A model generated the notes under the pieces. The model did no database searches, was not told where the DNA came from, and saw only the letters and a list, made by a program, of their open reading frames with translations. From the NCBI GenBank assembly GCA_905221615.1, contig CAJNDT010004024.1, positions 1 through 64,000 of the forward strand: a DNA stretch of 64,000 bases. The letters run 5' to 3'. The first letter of the stretch is position 1, and each line of letters begins with the position of its first letter. This DNA comes from Symbiodinium sp. CCMP2592 (Eukaryota > Sar > Dinophyceae > Suessiales > Symbiodiniaceae). Positions 8,111-62,619 of this stretch are shown here, piece by piece. The position numbers and the translations under genes were made by a program.

Positions 8111-8135
8111 GGGCCCCCCGGGAGTTTGAACCCTG

Positions 8136-9025: not shown

Positions 9026-9038
9026 AAATGGGATTTTC
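9026..9038 (-). repeat. Unit junction 1 (AAATGGGATTTTC)
   Basis: 3' end of family A copy 1, preceded on the + strand by C, as at the three other truncated junctions. A hairpin GCTTC-GCA-GAAGC follows at 9047-9059. Confidence 0.8.
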
Positions 9039-9276
9039 TCGCACACGCTTCGCAGAAGCAGCCCGTAGGCTTGTCCGACATGCACAAATTAACTCCAAGT
9101 ATTTTGGAGTCATCCGCATTTGCGGGCATCGCCAAAGTGGCGGCAGTGGCTACTCCTACCCTGAGCTACAGGCTGCCTGACCTACCTGAGCTACTGGCAG
9201 GAGTGGGTAGCCACTTCCTGGGAGTGGGGAGCCACATCCCAGTGAAACAGGACGAAAGTCCTACAGGGAGGATACC

Positions 9277-11184
9277 TCACCCGGAGGGGAGGAAACCTTC
9301 ACCCTGCAGAGCCTCCTGTCTCTGCACAGGAGAGGGGGGGCTAGGAGGCCAAAAAACCCTCTCCTGATGCCCGGGGGTCATGAAATGGGCTTGCATATGT
9401 TCGATTGTAGGGCACCCGACCCTACAAGCGTAACAAAAAAGCCCATCCGGGCTGTTGACTGCTCGGTGGGGTCCATACGAGGGTGGTGCCACCACATCCT
9501 CTGCAAGAGGGGAAGGCTCTTGAGGGGGGGGGCACCCCGTCCCTCCTGTAGACCCCGCAGCCTCGCTGAGGGAGGGCTCGCTTGCCTCGGGGACCTCTGG
9601 CTGCAGGGCCGAAGGCCCAGTAGCCATGAGGGTCCTTTCACCCTCGCATGGGCAACCGAAGGTCCAGGATCGCCTCGTCTGGCCAGACCTGGAGGCAGTC
9701 CAAGCCCCCCAGCTTGAGCCTGTTGCGACACAGGCTGAGCACCTCAGAGGCAAGAGCTGAGGGCTTCACGGCCAGGGCGATCCATCGCGCCTCCGGCGGT
9801 TGGCGACACTCTATGTCGAGGCGCATGAACTGAGTCGCCGGCCGCCGGGGCCCCGCCTGGACATCGCCCCTGTTTCTCTTGCGCGGGGCTGCTCCTCCCT
9901 CGGGAGGGAGGGGAGGGGGAGACGCGAGGTCTCCCTGCTCCCTCTGGGTCCCCTCCCCTGGGCCGTAGGAGACCGGGGGGCCAGCGGGCGGGGTTTCACG
10001 CCCCGGGGGGTGAGGTGGTGTAGCGGGTCCTGCGGAGGACGTGTCGCGGCTGGAGGCCGGACCACCTGTTCCTTCCTCGACCCTGGAAGGGGAGGTTGAG
10101 CCTGTTGAGACCGGAGCCCCGGATACGGGGTCATCCTTGGTGGTGGTCTCGTCTTTGGCGGGCACCTCCTCCATGGGTGCAGCTGTAGGCACCTCGGTGG
10201 CCTCCTGCCTTCACGGCACTGGGACCCGGCGCAGCAGAGGGTGGGTCAGGCTCCATCTCCTCTCCAGAGCTGCTGGGTGGGTCGTTGGCCGACCTGGCCC
10301 TGGCCGACGACTTTACCGCCGTCGTTTTCTGAACGATGCGGCGGGACCAGGGCAGCATCTCTTCCTGGTCTGGCTCCTGAGGCTCCGTCGGTGCCGTCGG
10401 GGGGCTGCTCTCGGAGCTCTCCGTGGAGCTTGTTGAGGCTTTCACAGCCTTTGCCGCCCCTTTGCTGTTGCCGCCAGTCCGCCTGGAAGGCGGAGGGGTG
10501 CGGACTCTAGGCGGCTTGCCGTCCAGCGAGGCCTTGGGAGGGTTGGACCCATCCCTTTCGGCCTTTAGGGCCTCCCTCTGGCTGCGAGGGGGACGCTTTC
10601 GGTTCCGCACAAAGCTGGAAACCGAAACCCGCCTCGCATCGGGGTTTTTCTTGGCACGCTCGTCTGCCCTGCCCTGCCCTGCCCGCCCTGCCCTGCCCTG
10701 CCCTGCCCTGCCCTGCCCTGCCCTGCCCTGCCCTGCCCTGCCCGGCCCTGCCCTGCCCTGCCCTGCCCTGCCCTGCCCTGCCCTGCCCCACGTGCTTCCG
10801 GTAGGCCTGGACGAGGGCCTTGTCCTCCCTATGGACGGAGGGCTGTTTGCCTCGCCCTTTTGAAGGGGTGGAACGACCACGCCCTTCAGAGGAGGCGGGT
10901 GGGATGTCCCTGGACCCGCTGGCACCGGTGTCGCCAGCCTGGTCGGTCCAGTCCCACTCGTCCCACCAACCTTGCCAGTCCTGCCAGCCGGTGGTGGGAC
11001 CATCAGAGCCGCCGGTATCACCACAAGCTCCCGAGTTGGAGCTGTGACCGGCGGTCTGATCTGCTGGGGGCTCGGCTAAGGGCTCCCAGAAATCAGCCCC
11101 AAACGGTTCTGGTCCGTTCCAAACCATTCGCCAGACCCATCTCCAGGAGTGGTAGCACCACCTCCTTTCCCATTCCCAGCCCAT
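9277..11184 (-). pseudogene. Family A ORF3, copy 1 (frameshifted)
   Basis: Begins near 11184 with MGWEWERRWCYHSWRW, a Trp-rich start shared by all copies, then a basic region (RKHVDERAKKNPDARR in intact copies), a Ser/Pro/Glu-rich linker, MRLDIECRQPPEARWIALAV, and a C-terminal C-x2-C-x12-H-x5-H finger (CYACRVG...HMQAH...GH) near 9390. In this copy a 124-bp CCCTG array (10665-10788) interrupts the basic region and shifts the frame; smaller indels follow. No homologous enzyme family is recognised. A nucleic-acid-binding role is inferred from the basic region and finger. Confidence 0.6.
10665..10788. repeat. (CCCTG)n microsatellite inside ORF3 of copy 1
   Basis: About 25 repeats of the pentamer. 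The other three family A copies read GCTCGTC-CACRTG at this point without it, so it is a copy-specific expansion. The length of 124 is not a multiple of three; in translation it gives runs of GRAGQ. Confidence 0.95.
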
Positions 11185-11382
11185 CTCGAAAAGTGAGAGG
11201 GCTAAGGCCGGGGAAGCGAGAGGTGCTCGTGGGCCATGGCTGCAGCTACTGCGCTTTAAAGGCTTGGGGAAAAACTGCGTCAGAGGTAGGTGTTTGCGTC
11301 CCAGGTGACTAGGGGGAAAAGGGCCCTAAAGGAAAAGTGCCTACAAAAGGCTACGGCTTCCCTAAGGCTTCCCGCCTTGGGC

Positions 11383-11406
11383 CCAGAACTGCCGGAGCTT
11401 AGGTTG
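11383..11406 (-). other. PIP-box-like C-terminus of ORF2, copy 1
   Basis: Encodes QPKLRQFW, fitting the PCNA-interacting consensus Q-x-x-L/I/M-x-x-aromatic-aromatic, close to the end of ORF2. The frame leading to it is broken in this copy. Confidence 0.45.
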
Positions 11407-11466
11407 AGTCACAGGCTTGGGCTTCGGCTTGGCTTCGGGGTGGGTGCAGCAGACCCTTCCCCAACA

Positions 11467-12621
11467 TCACCAACAGACACAGGAGCCTCGGGGGCCTTGG
11501 GTTGACCTGAGAAAAAAGGGGCTAGGGGCCCTGCAACCAGACGCTCGTGCGGGATTCCGCTCTCTCTCCACAGGTTTTTCCTTTTCCCGGTCGTGGTGCC
11601 CAGAGGTCTCTATGTGGGCCTCCCTCGCGGTGTGGGAACCACTACCGCTGACCCTAAGGGCCCTCAAGCTGGCCTGAAGGGATGACTCGGGTTCCCTCAG
11701 CGCAGGGGAGGGAACCTCGGACCCTCTGCCCGGCGGTGGTCTCGCAGGGAGGCTCGAGGCCCGTTTGGCCTTTGTGCTAGGTGCCACCTGAGTGGTAGCA
11801 GGCGGGCCGTGGTCAGCAGCTTTCGGAGCAGGCTGGGTGTTCCTGCTTTTTTTGCTATTGCCTTTGGAGGAAGACTGTTCCCGGGTGCGAAAAGGCTGAG
11901 GGGAGGGGTCCTCAACCCTCTCAGCACCACTAGGGCCAGCAACCGAGCCTGGATTGTGAGGGCGACCCCCCTGGGAAGAACCGGATCCCTCATTCTCTGC
12001 ACGTCCTAGCACCTTCTGGAGAGTGTCCTGGGTGGACGTCTCCTTAAGGTATTTGGCCGCCCATTGGGTGCCACGTTTTTTGTGGGCGCGGGAGGCCCCC
12101 TCACACTGCGATTTGGCCACAGCCGTGGGGTTAAGCTGCCCTGGCTTGTGGACCGCATAGCATTTAGTGCAAAGGAGGACCGCCCCCATGCAGTAGAAAG
12201 AGTGGGACGCGTGCAGGCCAAAGTTGCTGAGATCGGGCAGCGGCCGGTGAGCGCACGGCTGGGCCTCCAGACGCCGGAAGGCCTCGGAAGAGTGGGTTTG
12301 CTGGATAAAGAGGGAACAAACCTTACAAACCAGGGAGTGGTTGTTGGGGTTCGTATGGCTCCACTCGAATTGGTGCCCATGGTGGCCTTCCCCTGCCATT
12401 AGGGCCTCCAGGCGTTGTTTTTTGTTAATGCCCCCATCCGCGCCAGGTCGATGCTGCCTCTGAGGGGGTTTGGCCTGTTTCGCCTTGAGCCTGGCATCAG
12501 GGCGGGGAGACCCCTTGCCCTTTACCGGGCTGTCACCGACGGCCTCCCATGGGGGCCTGTCGGTACTCAGGAACTTCGGCTTTGCGTTGGAGGTGTTGCG
12601 CCACCTCTCGCGCCAAATCAT
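11467..12621 (-). pseudogene. Family A ORF2 C-terminal zinc-ribbon region, copy 1
   Basis: A 384-codon frame continuing ORF2 after RNase H. It carries a Cys/His module (SLVCKVCSLF, then PCAHR, HASHSFYCMG and LLCTKCYA) near 12140-12340 that may bind two zinc ions, then a basic, Ser/Pro-rich tail. The same module ends family B ORF2. The tail is frame-shifted here relative to copy 3, so the normal terminus is lost. Confidence 0.6.
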
Positions 12622-13614
12622 CTGCAGGGGATGGATCCCACTGTGGTAAGTGGGCGATGGCGGCTAGCACAGCTTCGCCGCATGCGGCGTCAGCCTGGGC
12701 ATTAATAGTCCGGCGCCAGCTCTGGTCGGGGCCGAATTCAGCCGCGTGTTCGGCCTCCGTGGTGTGGGACCTGGTCCACGTGACTTGCGCCAGAGACGCA
12801 TTATCAAGGGCCTGGGCCCATACCCATGGCTTGACAGCGCGTGACTGCTGCTTGGCCACCGCACTACAGTCGGAGGTGCAATCTGCCCGCTCCTCCAAGT
12901 GCGAGGTGAGCCTTGCGACCGCGAAGCATTCCCCTTCGCACACAGAACTCCCAGGAGGCCAGTGAGTTGGCCAACCTGGAGAGGGGCACCCTCCGTCCAG
13001 GTGAACGCGCAGATGGCCCAGGCCACTATCCTGCCCCTGGCGTCGGCCGCGTAGGGCCCGCCAGAGGCGTCCGTCGAATAGAAAAGCCCCTTTGACCACT
13101 TGGCCTCTTTGCAGACACCAACGGCCCGCTCCGACTGTGGGCCCCAGCAGTACCCCTGAAGCTGGGTGGCCTGAGCTGGCATCAGGCCCCGTTCCCATAA
13201 GCAGTCGAAGGGGAACTGGGCAGTGAGGCGTTCCCAGTGTTTGGGAGGGGGGGGTGCCTTGCCTCGCCACCATCTGCAGTCGGTGGCGACGTGGTGCTGG
13301 GTGAAGGGCACCTTGCACAGGGGGCATTGCTGGCCAGCCTGGACATGCCGGTTTTTCAGAGCTCCCTGCCAGGCCATTCTCAGGGCGGCAGACTTAATCC
13401 GCGGGGCCTTTTTCACAAGGGTTGTGGGGACCGTCGTATCCACACCTGAGGCCAGACTGCTGCAACCCGTTAGGGTGCTGATGGCCTTCCACCGGGCCTT
13501 GTGGCAGGCGCTGGTCAGGCAATAGAGGATGGCGGACCAGTGCCTCCGTAGGAGGGGGTTGAGGGCCACCATCCCTAGGTCCTCAGGGACCCCAGCCAAG
13601 GTAGCTGGACACAC
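12533..13614 (-). pseudogene. Family A RNase H and zinc knuckle, copy 1
   Basis: From 13614: connection region, then the knuckle CPLC-x7-H-x4-C near 13290-13340, then RNase H with D in STDASGG (about 13060-13085), E in CEGECFAV, D in TSDCSAV and the late D in NAQADAACG (about 12690). A small deletion after QLTGLL (near 12955) shifts the frame, so the first D and the remaining E, D, D are in different frames. RNase H would remove the RNA template during reverse transcription. Confidence 0.7.
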
Positions 13615-14909
13615 GTGCGGTCCAGCTGCTTACGGTCAGGGAGGCGGACCATCACCCGACAGAGGGCCTTAAAGTGCTGTGTGACCACTGCCACCCGGGG
13701 GTCCTTTACCAGCCAGGCGCCAAGTTCCAGCGCGATTTCGACGCTGCCCGTTCCGACCTTGCCAGTGATGGCGGCAGCTTGGAGACGCACCGATTTCATA
13801 GTTTTGGGGCTCACCCCTTGGGCCTGGTGTCCCCAGATCCCCGATGCCAGCACGGACATGGAAAACACCCGGCTGCTGGCCTTGATGTTGCGGACCTTAA
13901 GGCTGCGTAGCTTGCCCAGTCTGGCATTGGCTTTAGTCCGCCGCGCCGTGGAGAGGCGGGTGCACCGTCTCCTGCCAGCTGACAGCGTCATGCCCAGGTC
14001 TTTGGCAACACTCTGAATGGGGGGGTCACCCTCACCCAACTTTCGCCGCAAGGCGCGCTCGGCTAGGGGACTGCTCGCCAGGAAATAGGTCTTGCCGATA
14101 GATACCTGGTACCCCGCGGCGGAAAGCGAGGCATGAAGCCGTCTGAAGACCCTAATGACTGAGTTCGCTGCTTGGTCCGGGCTGTGATGTTCAGTATCTA
14201 CCGTGATGTCGTCTATCCACGTATCTACGTGGTTGACATGCGGTCCAGAGCAACACTGCCGAATCGGCTCGCCCACAGCGAGTTTACTCAGGGGAGGGGC
14301 TAATGGGCAGCCCGCTATAATTCCGCGGCGAGCGAAAGCAACGGGCGACGCGACTTCGTCGGAAAGGATCACTCTGCCGCCGCGATACGATTCCATAGCA
14401 AGGAAAAGCAAAAGGTCCGGGAATCCGGCCGTGAGCGCGGCGTCGCAGAGAGTGGAGTGAACCACAGTCTCATAAAAGGTACTCAAGTCGACAAACAACG
14501 AGCACCGATGCAGACCGTCGACGCGCGCGGCTTCGTAGCAGACGCCTCTCCGGAGTGAGGCATCGTAGGTGGAGCGCTCCGGCAAAGCGCAGTCCCACCA
14601 AAGCTCAGCGCGATAGTCGCGAAGCCACGCTTCAACTAGGTGCCATCTTGCCTTCATCCCAAGCTTCAGGAGCGAAGACATCAAACCAATCGGTCTTTCG
14701 ATTTTCTCGTTTTTAGCGAGCATCGTGAAGATGGTGAATGTCATCTGCTGTGGCACCTCTCCCGTGGTTTCGATTTCCCTCCAAAACGAGGCCAGGGAGG
14801 AAACCTCACCCGGTGTCAGGGCTTTGAGCAGCTCTAGGGACCAGCCGTCCGCACCCGCCGCTTTTAAGGGCAGGCGACGAATGAGCCGCTGGAACTCCTC
14901 CCCAGTGAC
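13575..14909 (-). pseudogene. Family A reverse transcriptase, copy 1 (5'-truncated)
   Basis: RT fingers and palm: TGEEFQRLIRRLPLKAAGADG (about 14850-14905), motif A FVDLSTFYE (about 14470-14495), motif B AGCPLAPPLSKL, motif C TWIDDITVD (about 14200-14222). The endonuclease half is missing. The frame continues past 14909 into the tail of copy 2 as far as an ATG at 14969, so an artificial start (MHVGQAYGLLLRSV) is fused on. The 3' side is broken by a deletion near 13612. Confidence 0.8.
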
Positions 14910-14922: not shown

Positions 14923-15225
14923 TCGCACACGCTTCGCAGAAGCAGCCCGTAGGCTTGTCCGACATGCACAAATTAACTCCAAGTATTTTGGAGTCATCCG
15001 CATTTGCGGGCATCGCCAAAGTGGCGGCAGTGGCTACTCCTACCCTGAGCTACAGGCTGCCTGACCTACCTGAGCTACTGGCAGGAGTGGGTAGCCACTT
15101 CCTGGGAGTGGGGAGCCACATCCCAGTGAAACAGGACGAAAGTCCTACAGGGAGGATACCTCACCCGGAGGGGAGGAAACCTTCACCCTGCAGAGCCTCC
15201 TGTCTCTGCACAGGAGAGGGGGGGG

Positions 15226-16978
15226 CTAGGAGGCCAAAAACCTCCTGACCCTCTCCTGATGCCCGGGGGTCATGAAATGGGCTTGCATATGTTCGATTGT
15301 AGGGCACCCGACCCTACAAGCGTAACAAAAAAGCCCATCCGGGCTGTTGACTGCTCGGTGGGGTCCATACGAGGGTGGTGCCACCACATCCTCTGCAAGA
15401 GCCGAATCCTCGGGGAAGGCTCTTGAGGGGGGGGGCACCCCGTCCCTCCTGTAGACCCCGCAGCCTCGCTGAGGGAGGGCTCGCTGGCCTCGGGGACCTC
15501 TGGCTGCAGGGCCGAAGGCCCAGTAGCCATGAGGGTCCTTTCACCCTCGCGGAGTTGGTCGCCCACGGGCAACCGAAGGTCCAGGATCGCCTCGTCTGGC
15601 CAGACCTGGAGGCAGTCCAAGCCCCCCAGCTTGAGCCTGTTGCGACACAGGCTGAGCACCTCAGAGGCAAGAGCTGAGGGCTTCACGGCCAGGGCGATCC
15701 ATCGCGCCTCCGGCGGTTGGCGACACTCTATGTCGAGGCGCATGAACTGAGTCGCCGCCGGGGCCCCGCCTGGGAGGGAGGAGGAGGAAGGGGAGGAGGC
15801 TCCTCAACCCTCGATGCACTGGCAGGTGGTGGGTTGCTAGGGGGAGCTTGGGGAGACGCGAGGTCTCCCGCTCCCTCTGAGTCCCGTAGGAGACCGGCGG
15901 GCCAGCGGGCGGGGTTTCACGCCCCGGGGGGTGAGGTGGCGCCTCCTGAGGAGCAGGATCCCGCTCGTTGGCTGCGGTAGCGGGTCCTGCGGAGGACGTG
16001 TCGCGGCTGGAGGCCGGACCACCGTTCCTTCCTCGACCCTGGAAGGGGAGGTTTGAGCCGGTTGAGCCTGTTGAGTTGGTGGTGGTCTCGTCTTTGGCGG
16101 GCACCTCCTCCATGGGTGCAGCTGTAGGCACCTCGGTGGCCTCCTGGTCGGAGGGTGCCTTCACGGCACTGGGACCCGGCGCAGCAGAGGGTGGGTCAGG
16201 CTCCATCTCCTCTCCAGAGCTGCTGGGTGGGTCGTTGGCCGACGACTTTACCGCTTTGTGAACGATGCGGCGGGACCAGGGCAGCATCTCTTCCTGGTCT
16301 TCTGGCTCCTGAGGCTCCGTCGGTGCCGTCGGGGGGCTGCTCTCGGAGCTCTCCGTGGAGCTTGTTGAGGCTTTCACAGCCTTTGCCGCCCCTTTGCTGT
16401 TGCCGCCAGTCCGCCTGGAAGGCGGAGGGGTGCGGGCTCTAGGCGGCTTGCCGTCCAGCGAGGCCTTGGGAGGGTTGGACCCATCCCTTTCGGCCTTTAG
16501 GGCCTCCCTCTGGCTGCGAGGGGGACGCTTTCGGTTCCGCACAAAGCTGGAAACCGAAACCCGCCTCGCATCGGGGTTTTTCTTGGCACGCTCGTCCACG
16601 TGCTTCCGGTAGGCCTGGACGAGGGCCTTGTCCTCCCTATGGACGGAGGGCTGTTTGCCTCGCCCTTTTGAAGGGGTGGACAGAGGAGGCGGGTGGGATG
16701 TCCCTGGACCCGCTGGCACCGGTGTCGCCAGCCTGGTCGGTCCAGTCCCACTCGTCCCACCAACCTTGCCAGTCCTGCCAGCCGGTGGTGGGACCATCAG
16801 AGCCGCCGGTATCACCACAAGCTCCCGAGTTGGAGCTGTGACCGGCGGTCTGATCTGCTGGGGGCTCGGCTAAGGGCTCCCAGAAATCAGCCCCAAACGG
16901 TTCTGGTCCGTTCCAAACCATTCGCCAGACCCATCTCCAGGAGTGGTAGCACCACCTCCTTTCCCATTCCCAGCCCAT
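15226..16978 (-). pseudogene. Family A ORF3, copy 2 (frameshifted)
   Basis: Same order as in the other copies: Trp-rich start at 16978, basic region, Ser/Pro-rich linker, MRLDIECRQPPEARWIALAV near 15700-15743, and a C2H2 finger (CYACRVG...HMQAH...GH) near 15265-15340. A roughly 16-bp deletion near 16680 relative to copy 1, and others around 15850-16060, break the frame. The zinc-finger residues themselves are intact. Confidence 0.6.
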
Positions 16979-17176
16979 CTCGAAAAGTGAGAGGGCTAAG
17001 GCCGGGGAAGCGAGAGGTGCTCGTGGGCCATGGCTGCAGCTACTGCGCTTTAAAGGCTTGGGGAAAAACTGCGTCAGAGGTAGGTGTTTGCGTCCCAGGT
17101 GACTAGGGGGAAAAGGGCCCTAAAGGAAAAGTGCCTACAAAAGGCTACGGCTTCCCTAAGGCTTCCCACCTTGGGC

Positions 17177-17200
17177 CCAGAACTGCCGGAGCTTAGGTTG
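17177..17200 (-). other. PIP-box-like C-terminus of ORF2, copy 2
   Basis: QPKLRQFW conserved at the same place as in copies 1, 3 and 4. Confidence 0.4.
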
Positions 17201-17261
17201 AGTCACAGGCTTGGGCTTCGGCTTGGGCTTCGGGGTGGGTGCAGCAGACCCTTCCCCAACA

Positions 17262-18194: not shown

Positions 18195-18315
18195 TAGGGC
18201 TTCCAGGCGTTGTTTTTTGTTAATGCCAGGTCGATGCTGCCTCTGAGGGGGTTTGGCCTGTTTCGCCTTGAGCCTGGCATCAGGGCGGGGAGACCCCTTG
18301 CCCTTTACCGGGCTG

Positions 18316-19840: not shown

Positions 19841-19841
19841 C

Positions 19842-21088: not shown

Positions 21089-21099
21089 GAGGCGATTGC

Positions 21100-21112: not shown

Positions 21113-21333
21113 CTCTCACGCTTCGCAGAAGCAGCCCGTAGGCTTGTCCGACATGCACAAATTAACTCCAAGTATTTTGGAGTCATCCGCGTTTGCGGGC
21201 ATCGCCAAAGTGGCGGCAGTGGCTACTCCTACCCTGAGCTACAGGTTGCCTGACCTACCTGAGCTACTGGCAGGAGTGGGTAGCCACTTCCTGGGAGGGG
21301 GGAGCCACATCCCAGTGAAACAGGACGAAAGTC

Positions 21334-48200: not shown

Positions 48201-51200
48201 AGGAAATGGAGGAGAGCAATAGGACGCTCTTTCTTGTCACTCTTAGGCAGCAAGGAAACGAGTGCTACGACAACTTGTGCAGGCCACTCCGCTCGCAACT
48301 CACAAGAACGCAAAAAGTCCAACACCGCTTGAATGGCCTCTCCTGACATGTTGCGCAGCATGTCTGCCGTCCAACCGTCGACGCCTGGGGCTTTCTTGGC
48401 TGCTTTACGGAAGTACGCGGTGGCCCGCTGCACAGAGATAGGAGGTAAACTTTGAGCCTGGGCGATGGCTCGCTGTTTAACTTCCTCAGCCAAATGCACA
48501 TCAACTTCCCCAGCATCGGCATCATGCCAGACTGCATGCCACTGGCGCCAACGCAAGTAGATGCGCTCCTGCAGTGGTGATTTCAGAAAGGGCCTCAACG
48601 TTTTGCTTTCATGCTGCTTGACACTTTGAAAAAGCGGTCTCATGCCACATTTGCTGGACTGGTCAAGCCATTGTTTGTAAGATTTAGATTGCGCCTGCAT
48701 CCAAAGTTGAGTATTCTGCTGCAGCTGCTGACGGACAATTGGCACAAGTGAAGAAAGCAGATCATCCGATAAATGGGCAAGTAAGTCTGCAACCTGTTCC
48801 GAGCAGGCTTTGGCGGAATCCGGGTCGCCGTGCCAATATTGGATGATGCAGGACACAACCTGGGACCCCAAGGGACACTTCTGAGGGGTTTTTTGACACG
48901 CTTCCAGCCACGAAAGCAAACGGCCCCAAAATGCGCACTTTTGACCTCCCCAACCTGCCCTTAGCCTGCCTTGCACTTGCATGGGTGCGCGGATCACGGG
49001 AATGTGCACACCTCGGCCTTGGGTATTGCCGTAAACAGATTGTTCCACTGCAGAGGACAGGTCCGCAAATTGCTGGGCAAATGCACGATCCTTAATCTCA
49101 AGGCCAAGCACATAAAGATTGTGCTCACTTTGCCGCGGCTCAAACTTCTGCGCCTGCACCTCCTGGGGTTTAAAAGGCTTTACTTGCGGAACGCTGAGCA
49201 GGACGTCGGACACCTGCCATTCCCACTCCAAAGCAGCATGTGGCTTGAAGGGAGTGAGCCACTGAGAGCTCACCCTCACAACATGTGACAGTGACCTGGA
49301 AACCAAGCCAAAATCAATGCGGCCTCCGCTAGCAATTGTGGGGCCGTCGGGGGCTAACCAGGCTCCTTTCGCTTCTAAGGCAACGTTGGTTGCAGACAAA
49401 GTTTCGAAATCATCATTAAAATCTCCTGCCGCAATGTATGAACCCCTAACCGAGGCAAGGAAAGGAATCAAATGCGACATCACAGCAGAATTGGCAGGGC
49501 TCTGAAAGCCTTCACCGGACTTCAAGTAGATGTTCACCAGGTAGAGGTCGGTGCCTCGTACCCGCATGGCAACAGAGTGGAAGCCCGCACCTTGGTGTGC
49601 AAAGTGGGCCGCCTGCCTGACGTCAAGATGTTTCCGGACACAAATGGCAAGCCCTCCGGAGTAGCCTCCCTTTCCGGTGGCAATAGCAGGTAGCTGGAAG
49701 GCCTGGAACCCATGTATGCCGACAGCATTGGCGAGCTGTTCTTGCTTGTCCTCTGATAAATGAGTCTCTTGCAGCAAGAAGACATCTACATGCTGGTCAG
49801 CAATCCATTTGGCAATGTCCTTGCGCCAAACAGTGATGTTGGCACTCGTGACACGAAAGGTTCTAGGCTTAGAGGGCTTATGAAGGTTGGCAATGACATC
49901 TTCCGAGGCAGAAACAGCCAGCATAGGCTCGTCGCCATGGCAGGCCTGCATGGCAAGGTCTGCTGCGAACCATGGGAAACTGCCCTCCTGGATAAACCCT
50001 TGTTCCTCAAGTTCAGAAACAATCTCAACCACTTTATCTTCCTGCACTGGCTGCAATGCCCTCTGCAGACGCTGCCACAGCTCCAGATGACGATCAGCCT
50101 TGCAGGTCACCCCCCGCTCGCTCCCATCAAGAGGGGCCGGGACAAGCTCTTTTGCATCATCCCGAAAGGGGGGTAAAGCGGCAGAAGCAACCCCCCATTT
50201 TCGAGTCGAAAGTGGGGGGTTGCCAAATCCTGATTTTGGCTCATTTTCCCGCCAGAGCGAAGCCCGCCGCAGTGTGGGTGTGGCCGATGCAGAAACCAAC
50301 CGAGTGCCGCCAGCGGGGCGCACATCGGGCAAACCTGGGATGCGGCGCGCATCAGAACTGAGGTCTTGCTGGCGACACCAGCGATTATACCTGCGCCTAG
50401 ACCTTCGGGACTTTGGGGCCTGCGATTCAATATCACCCCTAGCGTTCAGCACAACCTGAGCACATGGAGCAGCCGCAGGGGAAAAGGCCTCAGCCCCATC
50501 ACTTGGATCGGCATCAACATAGTCACCCAAAATTTCAGGATCGATCCCTCTGAAAAATTTTGGACCCGAAATGTAAACCTGCTGAGGCTGGCTCTTTGCA
50601 ATGCCACGGTTGGCATCAAACTTGAGAAGGCAATCAGGGCAAAACTGAGTGACATCGCGAAGCACAGTGCTGAGTTCCACACTGGGCTTCATGCAAAGAG
50701 CCTCCTGACATGCCACAATGAAGGCAATGGTGTCTGAGTGTGGATGCAAGGCCAACGGTACGCCGACCTCACAAGCAACGCAGCAGTGCGGCCTTGGGCA
50801 AAACATTGGGTTAGGGCCCTCAGAAAGAGGGAGAGCACACGGGTCAGGGCTGGGAATAAATTCAAGACAGCCATCATTGCTTGGCATCACACTCGGTCCC
50901 CCAGGACCCCGGGCCAGCGGCCCCCCCACCTCCTGATGAAGACTCCCCCTCCTGGTAAAGACCTCCGCCGCCATGGGGGTCCTGGGGGCTCCCTGTAGAC
51001 CCAGGGGCTGTATTGGAGAAAATTGATCAAGTTGGGCATCAGCTGATAAAGACTCCGGTGCACTCCCAGCCAAAAAGAAATTGGGGTTAGGGCCCTCAGG
51101 AGGAGGGGAAGCACACGGGTTCGGGCAAGGAAATGAAACCTCACTCATGGTTGTCTCCTCCACGAGGCCACGGGTGCTCAAACCGAGGTGTGAGTCCTCA

Positions 51201-52129
51201 AAGGAAGGGAAGGCGCACTGCACAATGAGGTTCAGGCCCGCAGGTGGAGGGGAATCACACAGGCCTGAGCCTTCTTGCACCGAGTCCTCAGGACCCTCAC
51301 GCCCAGGTTTAGCCCCAAGGATCTTGCCTGAAAACAGAGATGGGCCGGGCAAGGAACTTGAAGAAAAATTGGGGTTAGGGCCCGCACAAAACGGGGAAGC
51401 ACACGGGTTAGGGACCTGAAATGTCTCTAGCCCCCTTAAGCTCCCACCCTCGGGCGTCAAAATGACAGGGATCACACGCTTGCGCTGGCCGGAGGTCTCA
51501 AAAGCGGTGGAGCTGAAAATCTTGCACACAGATTGACCTGAAAGCACATAAGGATCTGCCAACACCACCTGAGAAACTGGAACACACGGCCGCCAAGTGA
51601 AAACGCACTGGCTGCACACTGCCTGCAGGGAAGGTTGAGGCCGAGGGGAAACAGGTAAAGGCGCAAGGCAGCTTGAGCACTCCACGGCACTGGACTCAGA
51701 ACCCAAACCCTCACACGAAGACTCGAAATCCCCAACACAACCTCCTAAAACCCACCCTTGCAGTGCTGAGGGTTCGGCATGCAGACGGCCCGCACGGCTT
51801 GAAACCAACGCGGCCTTTGCACAAGGCTGGCACATGTCATACCCTAGGCCGCCTTCCAACGAACTCACAGTTCGTGAGACAACAAGCGGCGCAGCACAGA
51901 GCAAACAAGGACTGCAAAAATATTGGCTGTAAACTGGCACCTCCGAAAAACGCTGACATAAAGATCGGCTCAAAAACAGATTGCAGAAATCTCCAAGGCC
52001 TGGTCCAGGACCGGGTTCATCCGCACTGGAGTGTGGCCCTAAAGGTGGGAAAGGTCGGGATTTTAGGGCCGGCAGCAGCCCCGAATCAGGAAAGTGTACA
52101 TGTTTTGCACGGCTTCGGCCTTCAATCAA
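45272..52129 (-). CDS. Family B ORF2: endonuclease, RT, RNase H, zinc ribbon (intact)
   Basis: 2285 codons without a break. N-terminal 600 residues: several CxxC pairs (CSPCLLC, CQPC, CSSC, CSQC) and three imperfect repeats of the type NPCASP-x4-GPNPNF. Endonuclease (residues about 760-985): SANITVW, LLQETHL, VNIYLKSG, GDFND (about 902), IDFGLVS, PHAAL. RT: motif A LFLDLENFYD (about 1372), B AGCPAAPSIAKL (about 1432), C VWVDDLSLD (about 1461). Knuckle CKQC-x7-H-x4-C (about 1803). RNase H: D in ATDASGG (about 1878), E in AAEQRAL, D in TIDCQSV, D in NDDVDGIC (about 2008). Zinc ribbon RCEICG ... MCTKCEKLQ (from about 2127). C-terminal KQSMLVFG. All RT and RNase H acidic residues are present. Confidence 0.93.
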   Translation of the reverse strand: MIEGRSRAKHVHFPDSGLLPALKSRPFPPLGPHSSADEPGPGPGLGDFCNLFLSRSLCQRFSEVPVYSQYFCSPCLLCAAPLVVSRTVSSLEGGLGYDMCQPCAKAALVSSRAGRLHAEPSALQGWVLGGCVGDFESSCEGLGSESSAVECSSCLAPLPVSPRPQPSLQAVCSQCVFTWRPCVPVSQVVLADPYVLSGQSVCKIFSSTAFETSGQRKRVIPVILTPEGGSLRGLETFQVPNPCASPFCAGPNPNFSSSSLPGPSLFSGKILGAKPGREGPEDSVQEGSGLCDSPPPAGLNLIVQCAFPSFEDSHLGLSTRGLVEETTMSEVSFPCPNPCASPPPEGPNPNFFLAGSAPESLSADAQLDQFSPIQPLGLQGAPRTPMAAEVFTRRGSLHQEVGGPLARGPGGPSVMPSNDGCLEFIPSPDPCALPLSEGPNPMFCPRPHCCVACEVGVPLALHPHSDTIAFIVACQEALCMKPSVELSTVLRDVTQFCPDCLLKFDANRGIAKSQPQQVYISGPKFFRGIDPEILGDYVDADPSDGAEAFSPAAAPCAQVVLNARGDIESQAPKSRRSRRRYNRWCRQQDLSSDARRIPGLPDVRPAGGTRLVSASATPTLRRASLWRENEPKSGFGNPPLSTRKWGVASAALPPFRDDAKELVPAPLDGSERGVTCKADRHLELWQRLQRALQPVQEDKVVEIVSELEEQGFIQEGSFPWFAADLAMQACHGDEPMLAVSASEDVIANLHKPSKPRTFRVTSANITVWRKDIAKWIADQHVDVFLLQETHLSEDKQEQLANAVGIHGFQAFQLPAIATGKGGYSGGLAICVRKHLDVRQAAHFAHQGAGFHSVAMRVRGTDLYLVNIYLKSGEGFQSPANSAVMSHLIPFLASVRGSYIAAGDFNDDFETLSATNVALEAKGAWLAPDGPTIASGGRIDFGLVSRSLSHVVRVSSQWLTPFKPHAALEWEWQVSDVLLSVPQVKPFKPQEVQAQKFEPRQSEHNLYVLGLEIKDRAFAQQFADLSSAVEQSVYGNTQGRGVHIPVIRAPMQVQGRLRAGWGGQKCAFWGRLLSWLEACQKTPQKCPLGSQVVSCIIQYWHGDPDSAKACSEQVADLLAHLSDDLLSSLVPIVRQQLQQNTQLWMQAQSKSYKQWLDQSSKCGMRPLFQSVKQHESKTLRPFLKSPLQERIYLRWRQWHAVWHDADAGEVDVHLAEEVKQRAIAQAQSLPPISVQRATAYFRKAAKKAPGVDGWTADMLRNMSGEAIQAVLDFLRSCELRAEWPAQVVVALVSLLPKSDKKERPIALLHFLYRSYIRLRWNLISEWQVTYSSKAAWDKALPGSQVLDVALGRLMRGEATRHAKSHMITLFLDLENFYDRCRFSDMLRTGLDLGYPPLILHQAWLVYSAPRFLQSEGTIAPPIWPSQGVLAGCPAAPSIAKLIIHPVAACITSKTGATNLDVWVDDLSLDAVDSSAEAAARTSLKLFRTLRRSLIDRGASLSMDKTCFVATTAQAATALNKLRCPMDPVVKSFARDLGVTSGGVRRRILGLAEQRRQKAKARHAQLCKLRVPNQQHRIRIVRASLWMAGLFGHQALGVSPKRRRWYRTITAKHLGRQKLGSLALVFTVMGHICEDPFATILRHHFKAVARVFHKWALQEHDKFHSAWRSQWQRLHGGKYPWLRVAGPLAATQAYLSELGVDAAEPCRWRHNSGSLQVDWQAPDTCRQVLQWISGLHQLQVRQRISDLEGCHLLAQGVDLTMPKKLLKTKFFNKNTLVSLKALWQGALLSESKPGYCKQCKCRLNLQHVLWECPALTTKFPEPPHFTQARKDFPWESLWLRGLVPWSKTRMQLHQGIERGLRVDGLWKEGCVLDASNFVFATDASGGPGSSDDRLRCVSWAIAAYALTPDGPQRVASISCLDKDLTVPAAEQRALMELFQWVSGDFDVTIDCQSVTQILKKSSPPQDSLIPWANVWHQKGRAQVTWVPSHKDQLYFKQHNIQEWRRIINDDVDGICRQVSAEAYSWEHAPWLKQVDAICKEISLHLAKKISFILQHRKSGMLPWILERPKQATAEHEQPLVIPNPVFVKPKPTTLNKRQRMLACIEGTVDTLGHRWVLGSEGSTNLTMRCEICGLYVQQILLQTRFDKLMQHPCKDQASSLPAEWSIHPSHSMLNLGVYWMCTKCEKLQRPVSEEAVKALVGSCKGPPKKSGHHAKQGHVQQKTLTPKPVAALQKTQARIPFGTKVKQKPTSEESQHPAELDGTREVRPTKESVPALKQSMLVFGHRK
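50187..50223. repeat. 17-bp hairpin element, copy 2, inside ORF2
   Basis: GCAACCCCCCATTTTCG, loop AGT, then the reverse complement with one mismatch. It lies in frame in the N-terminal part of family B ORF2 (residue about 640) and encodes GNPPLSTRKWGVA. Its neighbour sequence up to about 50330 (GAGTGCCGCCAGCGGGGCGC, ACATCGGG) matches that next to the 45097 hairpin. Confidence 0.85.
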
Positions 52130-52177
52130 AACACCCCGATCTTGATCAAGGTAACCACCAACCCTAATCCCAGACCC

Positions 52178-53365
52178 CTATCCCTGAGTCCGACCCCTAC
52201 TGCGCGAACGCGGCTTCTCACGTGTCCCATCCTGGACAGGCTGCTGGATCCCCTGCGGCTGGGAATTCGATGCTGGCGGCTCTTCAACACTGTTGCTCAG
52301 CCGGGTGGCTTCTGCCGGGGCCTGCTCTGTATCAATGTCCATGCTGCCCTCTAAGAGAGCCTGCTGCTCACTGCTAAGGGTGATACCACACTGAGTCAAG
52401 GCTAAAAGCACAGTCGCTTTGTCGGGCACGGACGGAGATTCAGCACCTGATTGCACCTTGGCTTCAAGATCCTTTTGAAGCTGCGTCACCTCGGATTGCT
52501 TATCAGACAGCTCAGTTTGGACATTTTTCATCTGATCAAGAAGGTCAGCGTACACAGCTTTTGCCCGGTCAATCTTGATTTGAAGTCCGGCTGATTTCTG
52601 GATGAGCTGGCGCAGCTCACTGGAACTAGACTTAAACTTCTTAGTTGCCGAGAGCATCAGCTCTGTGGCCGTGGGTTCTGGTGCACGGGGCTCCAAACTT
52701 TCAATGGCCTTCTTCAACGAATCTGGCAGCTGATCCATGTGCGCCTTCACAAGTGACTTGAGATCTGCAGGCTCAGCATGATTGGGGTCCTGGAATCCAA
52801 GCTGTTGCAAGAGGGACTTCTGCTCGGGAGAAGCAGAAGCCCACAGGGCTTGCGTAGCAGCCTCACTGTCCTTCATTTCAGGATGCTTGCCTTTGCCTTT
52901 GCCCTTGCCCATGCTGCCCAAGAAACCCGTGAAGGGAAGCCCTGGGGGAGGCTCAGGCTTGGACTCTTCCTTCGGCTTCCAGCCTGCTGCCACAAGCCCT
53001 TGCTGCACCTCCGGGGAAAACTTATCCCACAGTGAAAGCAATGCCTTATGAATCTTGGGACCAGGGCTGCGAGGCTGTGATCTTTGAGGCCTGGCTGCCT
53101 CAACTGCACGATCCTTCCAGACACGCGCTGCAGGACCTCGCTTCACACCTGGCCAGCGTTGGCCGCACGCCTTGCAGCACTCCAGTTTATCAGCGCCGAT
53201 ACGGTCACTCCAAACCCAGGCACCACATTTGGCGCAGACCGTATACGCACGGTTTCCAGTCATGCTGGCTGTCCCAGTGTACTTGCAAGAAAATCCTCGG
53301 CTGTACGTTTTGCAACAAGCAAACGGGCGTTTTTGCAAGGCCCAAAATCCAAGAAAATTCTGCAC
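52178..53365 (-). CDS. Family B ORF1: zinc ribbon and coiled coil
   Basis: 395 codons from the ATG at 53365; the ATG at 53263 (MTGNRAYTVCAKCG) is a better match to family A ORF1, which starts close to its zinc ribbon. Zinc ribbon CAKC...CKACG; two helical segments LWDKFSPEVQQGLVAAGW and LWASASPEQKSLLQQLGF that resemble LWKDLPEAAQKAFQEVGY of family A; coiled coil (about residues 230-310, ELRQLIQKSAGLQIKIDRAK...). A probable RNA-binding, oligomerising partner of ORF2, by analogy with LINE ORF1 proteins. Confidence 0.75.
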   Translation of the reverse strand: MQNFLGFWALQKRPFACCKTYSRGFSCKYTGTASMTGNRAYTVCAKCGAWVWSDRIGADKLECCKACGQRWPGVKRGPAARVWKDRAVEAARPQRSQPRSPGPKIHKALLSLWDKFSPEVQQGLVAAGWKPKEESKPEPPPGLPFTGFLGSMGKGKGKGKHPEMKDSEAATQALWASASPEQKSLLQQLGFQDPNHAEPADLKSLVKAHMDQLPDSLKKAIESLEPRAPEPTATELMLSATKKFKSSSSELRQLIQKSAGLQIKIDRAKAVYADLLDQMKNVQTELSDKQSEVTQLQKDLEAKVQSGAESPSVPDKATVLLALTQCGITLSSEQQALLEGSMDIDTEQAPAEATRLSNSVEEPPASNSQPQGIQQPVQDGTREKPRSRSRGRTQG

Positions 53366-53611
53366 AAGAAAACAAGGATTGGTTCACAAGCTGCAAGAAG
53401 AGTTTGCAAGCAGTTTCAAGTGTTGCGGCTCTATGGCGCTACTCTATTGCACTTCAGGGCTCTCCCTGGAACTGCCGCTACCCCTGCGCGCCCGTGCGGG
53501 TCAGCCCGCCTACGAGGAAACACAGAGATTGGTTTTGAGGTCTCTTGAGGGCCCACCCTTAGATACGGCCTCAGGAGCCCAGCCACGACGGCAACAGCGC
53601 GGCGCTCGCCA

Positions 53612-53641
53612 CTTGAACCACAACAGCTTGAGCCAAAATGG
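53612..53641 (-). repeat. Spliced-leader relics at the 5' end of family B
   Basis: Perfect CTTGAGCCAAAATGG at 53627-53641, directly abutted inside by CTTGAACCACAACAG at 53612-53626 (11 of 15 identical), a decayed older relic. Confidence 0.8.
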
Positions 53642-53648: not shown

Positions 53649-55889
53649 TCGGTCTTGCGCACAGAGTCGCGGCCCGTGAGGGCAAGTCTGAAAGCTGTAC
53701 TCTGACAGCCAAAGAAGCAGCTTCCTTGTGTTAAGGAACGCTCAGGCTAGGTCCTACTCTCTAGGACCCCCGACCTCCCAGTTCTTGCTGGTGAGGTACG
53801 CGGAGGGAACTACTTCAGGTCCTAACACAGGTCCTACCTCCCGGTCCCTGCCAGTGAGGTTGAAGAAGCAGCTCACTCAGCCTGTAGGCCCTTTCCCTCC
53901 CACCACTTGGGAGGTTCTAGGAAGCCAGTCCCTCCCAGGGAGAACCAAGACCAACAAGGGCCGCTTTCTCCAGGGTGGGCCAGACCCCCTAGTTGTGAAG
54001 AGCTTTAGGTGAGCTGGCCGTGCCCCGCTGCTCGGTAGGGAGGAGAACCCCCCAAGGCTTGGAGCAGAGAACCTAAGACTCACGAGCTTGGGTTGGACGC
54101 TGGGCGGCAACTGAGGTGGCCCTTGCGTTCTCGCTCTTACTAACAAGGGCCAGAGCACCCATGCCGCAGCAGCTCTGGGCACTCGGCTACCTCTGCCAAC
54201 CAACTCCACCCCAGTAACGGGCAGTGGAAGCAAACTGCCTTGGCTAAAAGGCTCGAGCAGCAGAGTGACCACTGGCCCCCTGTCTGCCGAGAGAAACCTC
54301 AACTCGGAGGGATCCGCCGCGAGGCTCTGCACGATCCGCGCCTAACTCACAGAGCTGTGCAAGCGGTGTTTGCACTGAAAAGGCGAGGCCCAAACCAAGG
54401 CCAGGCCAAAACTGAGAGGGTCTATGCAGAGACAGTGAGCGCGCACTGCCTCTGCACTGCGGTTGGGTACTGGCCCCCGGCGCGGGCCTGTTCACGCTCA
54501 CAAGGCGACCTTAGCCAACCGTCTACCCTCGGCAGCTGAAACCAAAACCAAGGCGAAAAAGTCAGCCGGCACTAAACCCTCTCAATGAGCGCGAGGGCAA
54601 ACGCACCCCTTACTATGCACAAACGCGCAGGAGTCGACGCTCCCCTCATCAAGCGCGGGGACCACGCCGCACCAGCTGACCCATCACCCTTGCTCGGGTT
54701 GCAGCTCAGGCAGGACCCACGGTCTGGACAGGCCTGGGAACCTGCTGCCAATAAAGAAGCAAGCGCCTAGCCGCACTTGCCATGCCACCCTGAAAAGGAG
54801 TGGACTAAGGAAAATCCCAAATACTTGGCTCAGCTCGACGCCAAGCACAGGGACGCAAGAGCCCGCAGTAACTCCTGCAAATGTGACACCTGCCCGCAGA
54901 CAGGTTCGGCCCAACCAAGCTTGAAGGCGTACTGCAAGGCCCTCAAGCGGATGACCGAGGCTAAGGGAGCTAAAAAGGGAGATCACCTCGAGGCTGGTGA
55001 GATGATCTTCCTGCATGTCCAGAATGCAAGCTCCTGTATTGGCGGCTCACTACAAGGCCCACCGCCGCCCTAAAAACAACCCTAAACCCTACCAAAGCCG
55101 CCAAGGGAAACCACCTGGAGGAGCCTCCACCACCTTGGTGGTCCTCACGCTTGCCGTCACTTACCCACACCACACATGTAGGCAATCCTAACCTTCTCGT
55201 TGCTTGTCGGTAAAGACCTGCCTCCATCTGTTCTCCTGCCCAGGTAGGCATGGTCCCAGGAGTGCACTGCATGCATGGCCGCACGTAGTGAAAGCAAACG
55301 ACTAACACAGCTGACTCTGGTCTCATGCAGTAAGTCCAGGGGCACCGACTGGGTGCTTGCTCAAGTTTGCCTGGGGTGAGCTCGCAGCGTAGAGACTGCC
55401 ACCCGCTCCAGACTGCTCACCAGCTTGGCCCGGCCCTGGGTGCTTAGTGTCCCTGCACCAAGGAAAACCCTCGAAAAGCCGTGGCCTTTGACCGTGAAGA
55501 CAGAAGGGCGAGCACCCCAAACTTGAGCCACAATGTCCCCCCTCGTAGGGTGGGTCCGCGTCTGGCGTTGCTCTACCACCCACCACAGGGGGACGTACCC
55601 CCTTGGCGCGGTGGACAGTTCCCCCGAGGGCCGAGCCCTTTCCGGTGGGAGCTGGCAAGTCCCTTGGGTGGACGTATCCCCTTCGTGAGGTGGATTGGTC
55701 CCCCGAGGGCTGAACCCTTATCGGTGGGAACAGGCAAGTGGGAGTGATGGCCCGAAGAAGCACAGCTACAAAGCCTGGGATTCACCTGTTTGGGGTCTCT
55801 TCAGCACACAGTTAGAGCCCAGGACTGATTGCAGACAACTACTTCTCCGACCACTGCGGTCACTCGAGCCAGACCTTGAGCCAAAATGG
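53642..55889 (-). mobile_element. Noncoding retro-unit C1
   Basis: 2.25 kb bounded by an SL relic (55863-55889) and the junction at 53636-53648, minus orientation inferred from these ends. It is nearly identical to the adjacent unit C2 except in the last 230 nt. No convincing ORF on the minus strand. On the + strand, ORFs at 54585-54770 and 54777-55073 lie in one frame separated by a TAG; I do not call them genes. An internal SL-like sequence lies at 55522-55536. Confidence 0.65.
55863..55889 (-). repeat. Spliced-leader relics at the 5' end of unit C1
   Basis: Perfect CTTGAGCCAAAATGG at 55875-55889, abutted by CTCGAGCCAGAC at 55863-55874 (9 of 12 identical to the same motif). Confidence 0.8.
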
Positions 55890-55896
55890 GATTTTC
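55884..55896 (-). repeat. Unit junction 9 (AAATGGGATTTTC)
   Basis: 3' end of unit C2 joined to the SL of unit C1. Hairpin GCCG-AAA-CGGC follows at 55923-55933. Confidence 0.8.
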
Positions 55897-58140
55897 TCGG
55901 TCGTGGGCACTGAGGCGCGGCCGCCGAAACGGCAAGTTCCGTCTGCTACGGGCTGTGTCTTACAGCAAAAGGAGCTTCCTTGTGTTAAGGAGCCCTCAGG
56001 CTAGTTCCTACCTAGGACCCCCGACCTCCCAGTCCCCGCTGGTGAGGTTCGCGGAGGAGACTACTTCAGGTCCTAAGCTCTAGGTCCTACCTCCCGGTCT
56101 GCGCCGGTGAGGTTGAAGAAGCAGCTCACTCAGCCTGTAGGCCCTTTCCCTCCCAACATTAGGGAGGTTCTAGGAAGCCAGTCCCTCCCAGGAAGAACCA
56201 AGACCAGCAAGGGCCGCTTTCTCCAGGGTGGGCCAGACCCCCTAGTTGTGGAGAGCTCTAGGTGAGCTGGCCGTGCCCCGCTGCTCGGTAGGGAGGAGAA
56301 CCCCCCAAGGCTTGGAGCAGAGAACCTAAGACTCACGAGCTTGGGTTGGACGCTGGGCGGCAACTGAGGTGGCCCTTGCGTTCTCGCTCTTACTAACAAG
56401 GGCCAGAGCACCCATGCCGCAGCAGCTCTGGGCACTCGGCTACCTCTGCCAACCAACTCCACCCCAGTAACGGGCAGTGGAAGCAAACTGCCTTGGCTAA
56501 AAGGCTCGAGCAGCAGAGTGACCACAGGCCCCCTGTCTGCCGAGAGAAACCTCAACTCGGAGGGATCCGCCGCGAGGCTCTGCACGATCCGCGCCAAACA
56601 ACAGAGCTGTGCATGCGGTGTTTGCACTGAAAGGCGAGGCCCAAACACGGCCAGGCCAAAACTGAGAGGGTCTATGCAGAGACAGTGAGCGCGCACTGCC
56701 TTCTGCACTGCGGTTGGGTACTGGCCCCCGGCGCGGGCCTGTTCACGCTCACAAGGCGGCCTTAGCCAACCGTCCACCCTCGGCAGCTGAAACCAAAACC
56801 AAAGCGAAAAAGTCAGCCGGCACTAAACCCTCTCAATGAGCGCGAGGGCAAACGCACCCCTTACTATGCACAAACGCGCAGGAGTCGACGCTCCCCTCAA
56901 CAAGCGCGGGGACGACGCCGCACCAGCTGACCCATCACCCTTGCTCGGGCTGCAGCTCAGGCAGGACCCACGGTCTGGACAGGCCTGGGAACCTGCTGCC
57001 AATAAAGAAGCAAGCGCTTAGCCGCACTTGCCATGCCACCCTGAAAAGGAGTGGACTAAGGAAAATCCCAAGTACTTGGCTCAGCTCGACGCCAAGCACA
57101 GGGACGCAAGAGCCCGCAGTAACTCCTGCAAATGTGACACCTGCCCGCAGACAGGTTCGGCCCAACCAAGCTTGAAGGCGTACTGCAAGGCCCTTAAGCG
57201 GATGACCGAGGCTAAGGGAGCTAAAAAGGAAGATCACCTCGAGGCTGGTGAGATGATCTTCCTGCATGTCCAGAATGCAAGCTCCTGTATTGGCGGCTCA
57301 CTACAAGGCCCACCGCCGCCCTAAAACCAACCCTAAACCCTACCAGAGCCGCCAAGGGAAACCACCTGGAGGAGCCTCCACCACCTTGGTGGTCCTCACG
57401 CTTGCCGTCACTTACCCACACCACACATGTAGGCAATCCTAACCTTCTCGTTGCTTGTCGGTAAAGACCTGCCTCCATCTGTTCTCCTGCCCAGGTAGGC
57501 ATGGTCCCAGGAGTGCACTGCATGCATGGCCGCACGTAGTGAAAGCAAACGACTAACACAGCTGACTCTGGTCTCATGCAGTAAGTCCAGGGGCACCGAC
57601 TGGGTGCTTGCTCAAGTTTGCCTGGGGTGAGCTCGCAGCGTAGAGACTGCCACCCGCTCCAGACTGCTCACCAGCTTGGCCCGGCCCTGGGTGCTTAGTG
57701 TCCCTGCACCAAGGAAAACCCTCCAAAAGCCGTGGCTTTTGACCGTGAAGACAGAAGGGCGAGCACCCCAAACTTGAGCCACAATGTCCCCCCTCGTAGG
57801 GTGGGTCCGCGTCTGGCGTTGCTCAACCACCCACCACAGGGGGACGTACCCCCTTGGCGCGGTGGACAGTTCCCCCGAGGGCCGAGCCCTTTCCGGTGGG
57901 AGCTGGCAAGTCCCTTGGGTGGACGTATCCCCTTCGTGAGGTGGATTGGTCCCCCGAGGGCTGAACCCTTACCGGTGGGAACAGGCAAGTGGGAGTGATG
58001 GCCCGAAGAAGCACAGCTACAAAGCCTGGGATTCACCTGTTTGGGGTCTCTTCAGCACACAGTTAGAGCCCAGGACTGTTTGCAGACAACTACTTCTCCG
58101 ACCACTGCGGTCACTCGAGCCAGACCTTGAGCCAAAATGG
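55890..58140 (-). mobile_element. Noncoding retro-unit C2
   Basis: Tandem neighbour and near copy of C1, with the same boundaries (SL relic 58114-58140, junction 55884-55896) and internal SL-like sequence (57773-57787). From about 56112 to the SL end the two units differ only at scattered bases, whereas the 3' terminal 230 nt differ clearly. Its 5' end abuts the stop codon of the copia-like polyprotein. Confidence 0.65.
58114..58140 (-). repeat. Spliced-leader relics at the 5' end of unit C2
   Basis: Perfect CTTGAGCCAAAATGG at 58126-58140, abutted by the decayed CTCGAGCCAGAC at 58114-58125, identical to that of unit C1. Confidence 0.8.
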
Positions 58141-58147
58141 GATTTTC
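58135..58147 (-). repeat. Unit junction 10 (AAATGGGATTTTC)
   Basis: Joins the copia-like gene to unit C2. The TGA stop of that gene (58146-58148 on the + strand as TCA) overlaps the junction. No hairpin tail is seen on this side. Confidence 0.75.
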
Positions 58148-62598: not shown

Positions 62599-62619
62599 CG
62601 TCCAGCATTCTTTCGAACT

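Follow-up and report, generated by a model that had tools for sequence, protein, structure and literature searches.

The window analysed here was a stretch of 64,000 nucleotides from the dinoflagellate Symbiodinium sp. CCMP2592 (assembly GCA_905221615.1, contig CAJNDT010004024.1, positions 1 to 64,000). It contains a 5'-truncated Ty1/copia-like long terminal repeat (LTR) retrotransposon, whose 3' LTR is interrupted shortly behind the polypurine tract (PPT) by a head-to-tail chain of nine units. These are long interspersed nuclear elements (LINEs) of the families A and B and noncoding units, and each of them is followed by the same 13-mer, AAATGGGATTTTC (Table 1). It is highly probable that such chains are the product of a target-specific LINE lineage and its passengers, which would use the 3' PPT/LTR junction in the copia-like element and in one or more further LTR families, with the target being regenerated at every insertion.

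The original prediction, made by a model from the sequence of the window, had placed ten identical copies of the 13-mer, in one orientation, where one unit ends and another begins, and this was exact throughout. All ten copies lay on the plus strand (chance expectation 0.01; 0 of 100 shuffles had ten copies), and both self-comparison and flanks located them where one unit stops and the next sequence starts. The units run along the minus strand, on which the word reads GAAAATCCCATTT. Versions with two mismatches were found at six more places in the window, none of them at unit ends. In the genome searched (1.098 Gb, 5383 contigs), 245 + 239 copies (484) were detected, often grouped in same-strand clusters, against 12 + 20 (32) for the reversed control word.

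At the loci of other 13-mer copies one right side (GACCTTGGATGTCC...) and one left side (CCAAGAGGGGGTGT) recurred, and in locus L017 the two were joined by a single 13-mer. In L017 the left side corresponds to the end of the copia-like pol open reading frame (ORF) that also occupies 58146-62168 of the window; the TGA stop codon of this ORF overlaps with the 13-mer. Locus L059 carries a complete empty host, with 235-bp LTRs at 289-523 and 9628-9862, LTR ends TGTGAAAA and TTTTCACA, AGTCT on both outer flanks and a pol ORF that reaches up to the 3' LTR. Since these paired LTRs carry the 13-mer, the word corresponds to nt 4-16 of the 235-bp LTR; the possibility that it was some other multicopy target was dropped after the LTR pairs and empty LTRs had been found. 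This host (LTR family 1) has the RVT_2 pol, the paired TG..CA LTRs, the PPT and the short target duplication of Ty1/copia elements, with a weak match only for the integrase core (E=0.21). Empty 3' LTRs in L017, L052 and L059 read PPT-TGT-13-mer-GACCTTGG uninterrupted. In the window the order is PPT-TGT-13-mer, nine units each followed by the 13-mer, and then GACCTTGG, the first 16 nt of the LTR being at 58150-58135 and the remainder at 9025-8807. The copia-like gene, which had been counted among the joined units, is therefore the host of the chain and not one of its units, its ORF being the upstream half of the host element by comparison with L017 and L059.

Table 1. Coordinates of the host element and of the chain units in the window.
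Feature	Position	Strand	Evidence or remarks
Host copia-like pol (RVT_2), 5'-truncated	58149..62046	-	RVT_2 E=3.9e-22; 99.8% identity to L059 nt 5732-9643
pol stop codon TGA	58148-58146	-	overlaps LTR start
Polypurine tract AGAGGGGG, directly before LTR	58151..58158	-	exact site match
LTR nt 1-16 (TGT + GAAAATCCCATTT), upstream target copy	58135..58150	-	
Noncoding unit N2b, starts with spliced-leader TGGCTCAAG	55897..58134	-	same-family starts at both LTR families
Noncoding unit N2a	53649..55883	-	96.5% identical to N2b
LINE B, spliced-leader start	43149..53635	-	Exo_endo_phos 1.8e-10, RVT_1 1.5e-10
LINE B open frame	52178-53383	-	no Pfam match
LINE B open frame	45272-52177	-	endonuclease + reverse transcriptase
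Noncoding unit N1, begins with T run, not leader	41172..43135	-	
LINE A copy 1, 10.1 kb, spliced-leader start	31091..41158	-	
LINE A copy 2, 10.0 kb	21113..31077	-	endonuclease-reverse transcriptase frame 25435-28590
B-like LINE, 5'-truncated	19855..21099	-	37% identity over 143 aa to B ORF C-terminus, E=2.7e-15
LINE A copy 3, 5'-truncated	14923..19841	-	
LINE A copy 4, 5'-truncated	9039..14909	-	
13-bp target duplication	9026..9038	-	other copies start at 14910, 19842, 21100, 31078, 41159, 43136, 53636, 55884, 58135
Last 13-mer (9026-9038) + rest of 3' LTR up to TTTTTCACA	8807..9038	-	99.6% identity to L059 3' LTR

The units had been described as unrelated in sequence, which did not hold. The proteins of LINE A and LINE B are 32% identical over 964 aa, N2a and N2b are near-identical (Table 1), and the unit at 19.9-21.1 kb, taken for noncoding, is a 5'-truncated B-like LINE, with 78% DNA identity at its 3' end in addition to the protein match. 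Judging from their sequences, A and B are related LINEs with an endonuclease and a reverse transcriptase. The LINE A frame gave RVT_1 at the cut-off (7e-7) and Exo_endo_phos below it (0.0031). In LINE B the best match to LINE-1 ORF2 chains had an E of 9.4e-7, and the apurinic type of its endonuclease, for which Exo_endo_phos was above the cut-off, was accompanied by weak matches to apurinic endonuclease chains (E 0.39-0.89). RNase H had been suspected by eye in A and B, and no Pfam match up to E=1 was obtained in the segments searched.

The junction word was then compared with the host at the 3' ends of LINE A, of which at least 156 were found genome-wide (up to three mismatches; control 0) and 31, in 30 loci, were read. 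They were followed by GAAAATCCCATTT or GAAAAGTTTGCTC(C), more rarely by GAAAAGTTCGGCTC, GAAAATTCCATTT or GAAAATCCAACAG. Chains in LTR family 1 carried GAAAATCCCATTT, whereas those in LTR family 2 carried GAAAAGTTTGCTC(C). All eight contigs with two or more LINE A ends read had a single word type; in two of these the ends lay on opposite strands and therefore belong to different chains with the same word type. LTR family 2 is defined by GAAAAGTTTGCTCC, the start of another LTR, which is about 494 bp long (470 bp in one copy) and common to five loci, the five copies diverging at or just past TTTTTCACA; the surroundings of its PPT-LTR junction were read in short slices. In contig C19 the variant GAAAATTCCATTT stands at the PPT-LTR junction, ahead of a LINE A-like start, and it recurs after a LINE A 3' end 10.1 kb on. 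This interval equals a full LINE A in length, its junction ends having been read and its interior being deduced from the length. As the junction word comes from the local target in the two LTR families and in C19, each insertion duplicates it, and on this comparison the 13-mer is a target-site duplication and not a unit end or a linker. Of the original prediction, the common integration rule was upheld, and of its two options repeated insertion, here at a regenerated site, is the better one; an end shared by the elements was not upheld, because it is the host target that is duplicated.

These data also bear on two other explanations. If the 13-mer were a 3' tail encoded by every unit, with blunt insertion behind the previous one, it would stand at the end of every unit, as it does in the window; however, the same LINE A end is followed by differing words according to the LTR family, and the word belongs to empty LTRs. 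The C19 variant and the chains of LTR family 2 refute this explanation, which is scarcely credible. Template switching between RNAs, or concatemerisation before one integration, had been offered in the prediction and agrees with the many kinds of units found in one orientation within one host LTR. It is nevertheless very improbable. A complete host word lies between the units, 5'-truncated ones included, and jumps from one RNA to another would not provide it; moreover, the word varies with its host (LTR family and C19 variant), and empty target sites exist.

Further words were found at LINE A ends. In contig C565 (L085, L086) the third word, GAAAAGTTCGGCTC, follows LINE A ends and precedes leader-headed units, which suggests a third LTR family as host. 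The imperfect palindrome noted in the 13-mer is present (AAAT-CCC-ATTT), but as it is missing from the second target, GAAAAGTTTGCTCC, it plays no general part. In L068, on contig C139 with its family 1 chain, GAAAATCC comes after a LINE A end and other sequence continues from there; GAAAATCC is presumably a shorter or damaged target word. The comparison of contigs C590 and C3821 was uninformative, as the exact word is absent from C3821.

The targets of both LTR families have GAGGGGGTGT|GAAAA in common, that is, the PPT/LTR junction, and GAGGGGG precedes LTR family 2 as well. The shared core across this junction, GAGGGGGTGTGAAAA, occurs at 127 exact places (reversed control 0). Among the PPT-LTR sites of family 1, 16/74 continue into the LTR and 58/74 are interrupted or diverged there; for the exact sites of family 2 the figures are 7/31 continuing and 24/31 not. 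Eleven non-continuing sites were read (four of family 1, seven of family 2), and all enter non-LTR sequence, most of them being from contigs known for chains or LINE A ends and not a random sample. With such occupancy, one retrotransposon class would be living on an essential sequence of another.

A comparison of 100 listed LINE A ends (of 156) with 100 of the 127 PPT places found 50 ends on the same strand as a listed PPT site and up to 100 kb downstream of it, none only upstream and one only on the opposite strand. If 5' LTRs were hit equally often, ends upstream of PPT sites would be expected as well. All 15 non-PPT LTR starts examined were empty, a biased figure, as the loci had been picked for a continuing LTR, and it was not used as proof, the LINE A end comparison being less biased; LTR-start readings refer to distinct contexts, leaving out rows with fewer than 12 bases of flank.

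At five of the ten window junctions the 13-mer is directly followed by TGGCTCAAG, the end of the dinoflagellate spliced leader; a 21-nt form of this leader, CCGTAGCCATTTTGGCTCAAG, occurs in L084. Of 92 distinct junction contexts, 34 had LTR, 31 leader and 27 other sequence, seven of the last being judged not to be units. The resulting 51 unit starts include L003 and L093-L095, whose downstream sequence has no identity assigned, and 31 of the 51 bear leader sequence. In both target families usually only about the last nine leader bases are left; the form reduced to TGGCTCAAG was observed in L061, L064, L072, L074, L076, L082, L087, L089, L091 and L097, besides the five window junctions. A modified base halting reverse transcription is one example of a possible cause. 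Microhomology (CCATTT) between leader and 13-mer was also considered and fits family 1, but in family 2, which lacks the homology, the cut mostly falls at this leader base too. LINE A copy 2 starts with two tandem leader copies, the second from CCATTT. In L005 and L085 the leader is followed by CCATTTTGGCTCAAG, cut at the leader's own AG, and L087 reads leader, TTTGCTC and leader again, TTTGCTC being the part of the target word after GAAAAG. These relics support repeated cycles, and L087, a single case, would imply read-through, with a transcript starting upstream of the unit and trans-spliced at the AG in the target duplication. Additionally, in N1 (window 43128-43148) and in a similar unit in L023 near 4978 the 13-mer runs straight into 8-10 T in place of a leader, perhaps a sign of a 5' inversion or of another kind of RNA end.

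As is characteristic of target-specific non-LTR retrotransposons, the chains include elements with a reverse transcriptase and a LINE endonuclease, occupy one precise site of a multicopy sequence of which empty sites exist, and contain 5'-truncated copies joined to the same target word (in the window those starting at 14909, 19841 and 21099). LTR family 1 bears N2 starts in the window, L025 and L075, its variant in L060 and family 2 in L074, and both families also have A-like starts; unit families common to both targets would be best explained by shared machinery. In the mechanism proposed, the apurinic-type endonuclease of the A and B LINEs would nick the bottom strand beside the PPT, at TTTTC|ACA and thus three bases into the LTR, and reverse transcription would be primed at this nick. 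The target duplication would result from a second cut at a distance of 13 bp (13-14 bp for LTR family 2). The target word, restored by each insertion, could receive further insertions and so give a head-to-tail chain, in the window presumably nine retro-insertions, one behind another, in one 3' LTR. For noncoding and 5'-truncated units at the same site, the simplest explanation would be that the same machinery carries their RNA. Most units bear the leader at their 5' end, and hence their RNAs would have been trans-spliced to it before being copied back.

Several observations weigh against the target-specific mechanism or parts of it. Of the 92 junction contexts, seven lie elsewhere than at units (L001, L004, L012, L013, L015, L018, L020); no listed PPT site is near 49 of the 100 listed LINE A ends, and the third junction word (C565) has no LTR traced to it. 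LINE A copy 1, the nearest to pol, has 86 private changes, the other copies having 30, 18 and 13; growth of the chain only at the PPT side was rejected, as it would make this copy the youngest, and the misfit would disappear only if differences among sources dominate. A requirement for PPT bases would also sit uneasily with the reuse of inner junctions. Finally, an exact intact 5' LTR at 9.0-9.7 kb was found for 9/30 non-empty PPT sites versus 7/9 empty ones, with 100 of 196 LTR places listed and with C1159 scored as non-empty although an empty site with two changes is present there. The 21 missing 5' LTRs may be mutated, truncated (as in the window host), outside the listed places, or themselves hit. 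The exclusive use of 3' LTRs is thus based on the LINE A end test, and some 5' LTRs may have been hit as well.

The same 5' LTR figures would be accounted for if only the LTR terminus TGTGAAAA were recognised, the 3' bias being due to chromatin, transcription or loss of elements hit in their 5' LTR. This terminus starts the LTRs of both families and is also found at LTR starts without a PPT, but the 50 listed LINE A ends downstream of a PPT site against none only upstream make this explanation rather doubtful. A further alternative would accept single target-specific insertions and attribute chain length mostly to later unequal exchange or slippage. Short tandem steps made up of no more than a unit end and the word (74 bp in L089, 49 bp in L021), the 3/8 window neighbour pairs of one family and the grouping of LINE A copies 3 and 4 are in its favour; it is unlikely in view of the 5/8 neighbour pairs of different families and of the junction spacings, which differ among the listed clusters, the window being the only whole chain read.

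A 3' RNA hairpin shared by the units would explain mobilisation in trans under the target-specific mechanism, and its lack of support also counts against the latter, as does a weight-matrix scan for unit ends that ranked four places inside LINE A first. A paired stem was scored at 10/20 unit ends versus 6.4 expected from shuffles, and at 8/17 control flanks too; in pair counting no measure exceeded its own shuffles. The helix as drawn paired 76.3% of cells versus 28.8-57.5% when slid. A profile of 12 off-window unit ends had its top three nhmmer window hits at unit ends, all weak (E 0.4-1.8). Read as a sign of a 3' end shared with the partner LINE, as in SINE-type passengers, the profile results are mixed.

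Among known systems, Tx1L of Xenopus laevis (Tx1 clade) is a LINE with an apurinic-type endonuclease that inserts at one site inside the DNA transposon Tx1D. The elements described here resemble it in endonuclease type and in the use of one site within another transposable element, but differ in the host (copia-like and at least one other LTR family), in the PPT/LTR site, in the sharing of this site by several families and noncoding units, and in their long chains. Zepp elements form LINE nests in green algae, and SLACS/CRE of trypanosomatids are LINEs associated with the spliced-leader sequence. The nested clusters recall the former and the association of LINE and leader the latter, although the leader is here carried in the unit RNA and is not the target.

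Transposons are among the known targets of target-specific non-LTR elements, and Utopia is target-specific for U2 snRNA genes and occasionally tandem (PMC4640811). Target specificity and tandem insertion are thus shared with Utopia, which differs in its restriction-like endonuclease and snRNA gene target (PMC4640811). The Celine LINE of poplar centromeres lies mostly inside LTR retrotransposons and is at times self-nested, as here (PMC11288735); its differing target duplication in each copy contrasts with the one word per host of the window and of the eight contigs. In dinoflagellate mRNA recycling, cDNA copies of retrogenes begin with the dinoflagellate spliced leader (DinoSL) and contain relics cut at an internal AG (PMC3229502, PMC6050394). 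Leader-headed cDNA copies and AG-cut relics are common to both cases, whereas LINEs, noncoding passengers and a defined target are features of the present one. A 2018 review regarded the type of retroelement that reverse-transcribes dinoflagellate mRNAs as unknown, and favoured Ty1/copia (PMC6050394, section 7).

The general kind of element is therefore known, namely target-specific LINEs and transposon targets. In the open-licence literature searched, no report was found of a LINE using the PPT/LTR junction of LTR retrotransposons, nor of the 3'-LTR bias, the occupancy or the leader-headed chains. LINEs whose own copies and those of their noncoding passengers are headed by the leader are direct candidates for the element that reverse-transcribes dinoflagellate mRNAs. 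A wider proposal, advanced tentatively and on balance doubtful, would combine these elements: a LINE lineage specialised on the PPT/LTR junction would occupy most 3' LTRs of at least two families, its chains would be polycistronic arrays that re-enter the site, and its machinery could be the source of the leader-tagged retrogenes that are typical of dinoflagellates. Copia elements would need the PPT/LTR sequence for replication and could not easily change it, in family 1 the insertion would closely follow the stop codon of pol, and read-through RNA would be cut by trans-splicing into leader-capped units.

Other features were observed in and around these elements. Five of the non-unit contexts (L004, L013, L015, L018, L020) show a different repeat, similar by eye (about ...GGTCCCCTATTTTCG), which likewise terminates in GAAAATCCCATTT; its downstream flanks differ at all five places, and no LINE or copia sequence was recognised there. 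Its ending in this word is possibly a coincidence or the end of another element. The host copy matches L059 from nt 5732 onward only and ends at about 62046 (window 62046-64000 and L009 examined); the upstream half and 5' LTR of L059 gave no match in the 12 kb beyond, which open with 115-bp tandem repeats (62306-62575) and AT runs. An open frame of 1205 aa (776-4393, plus strand), which lies on the opposite strand and to the left of the host LTR, gave no Pfam match up to E=0.01. About 25 CTGCC units are present in LINE A copy 4 (10664-10788) and were not found in the other three copies, and LINE B contains a 63/126-bp tandem repeat (44083-44516) downstream of its long ORF.

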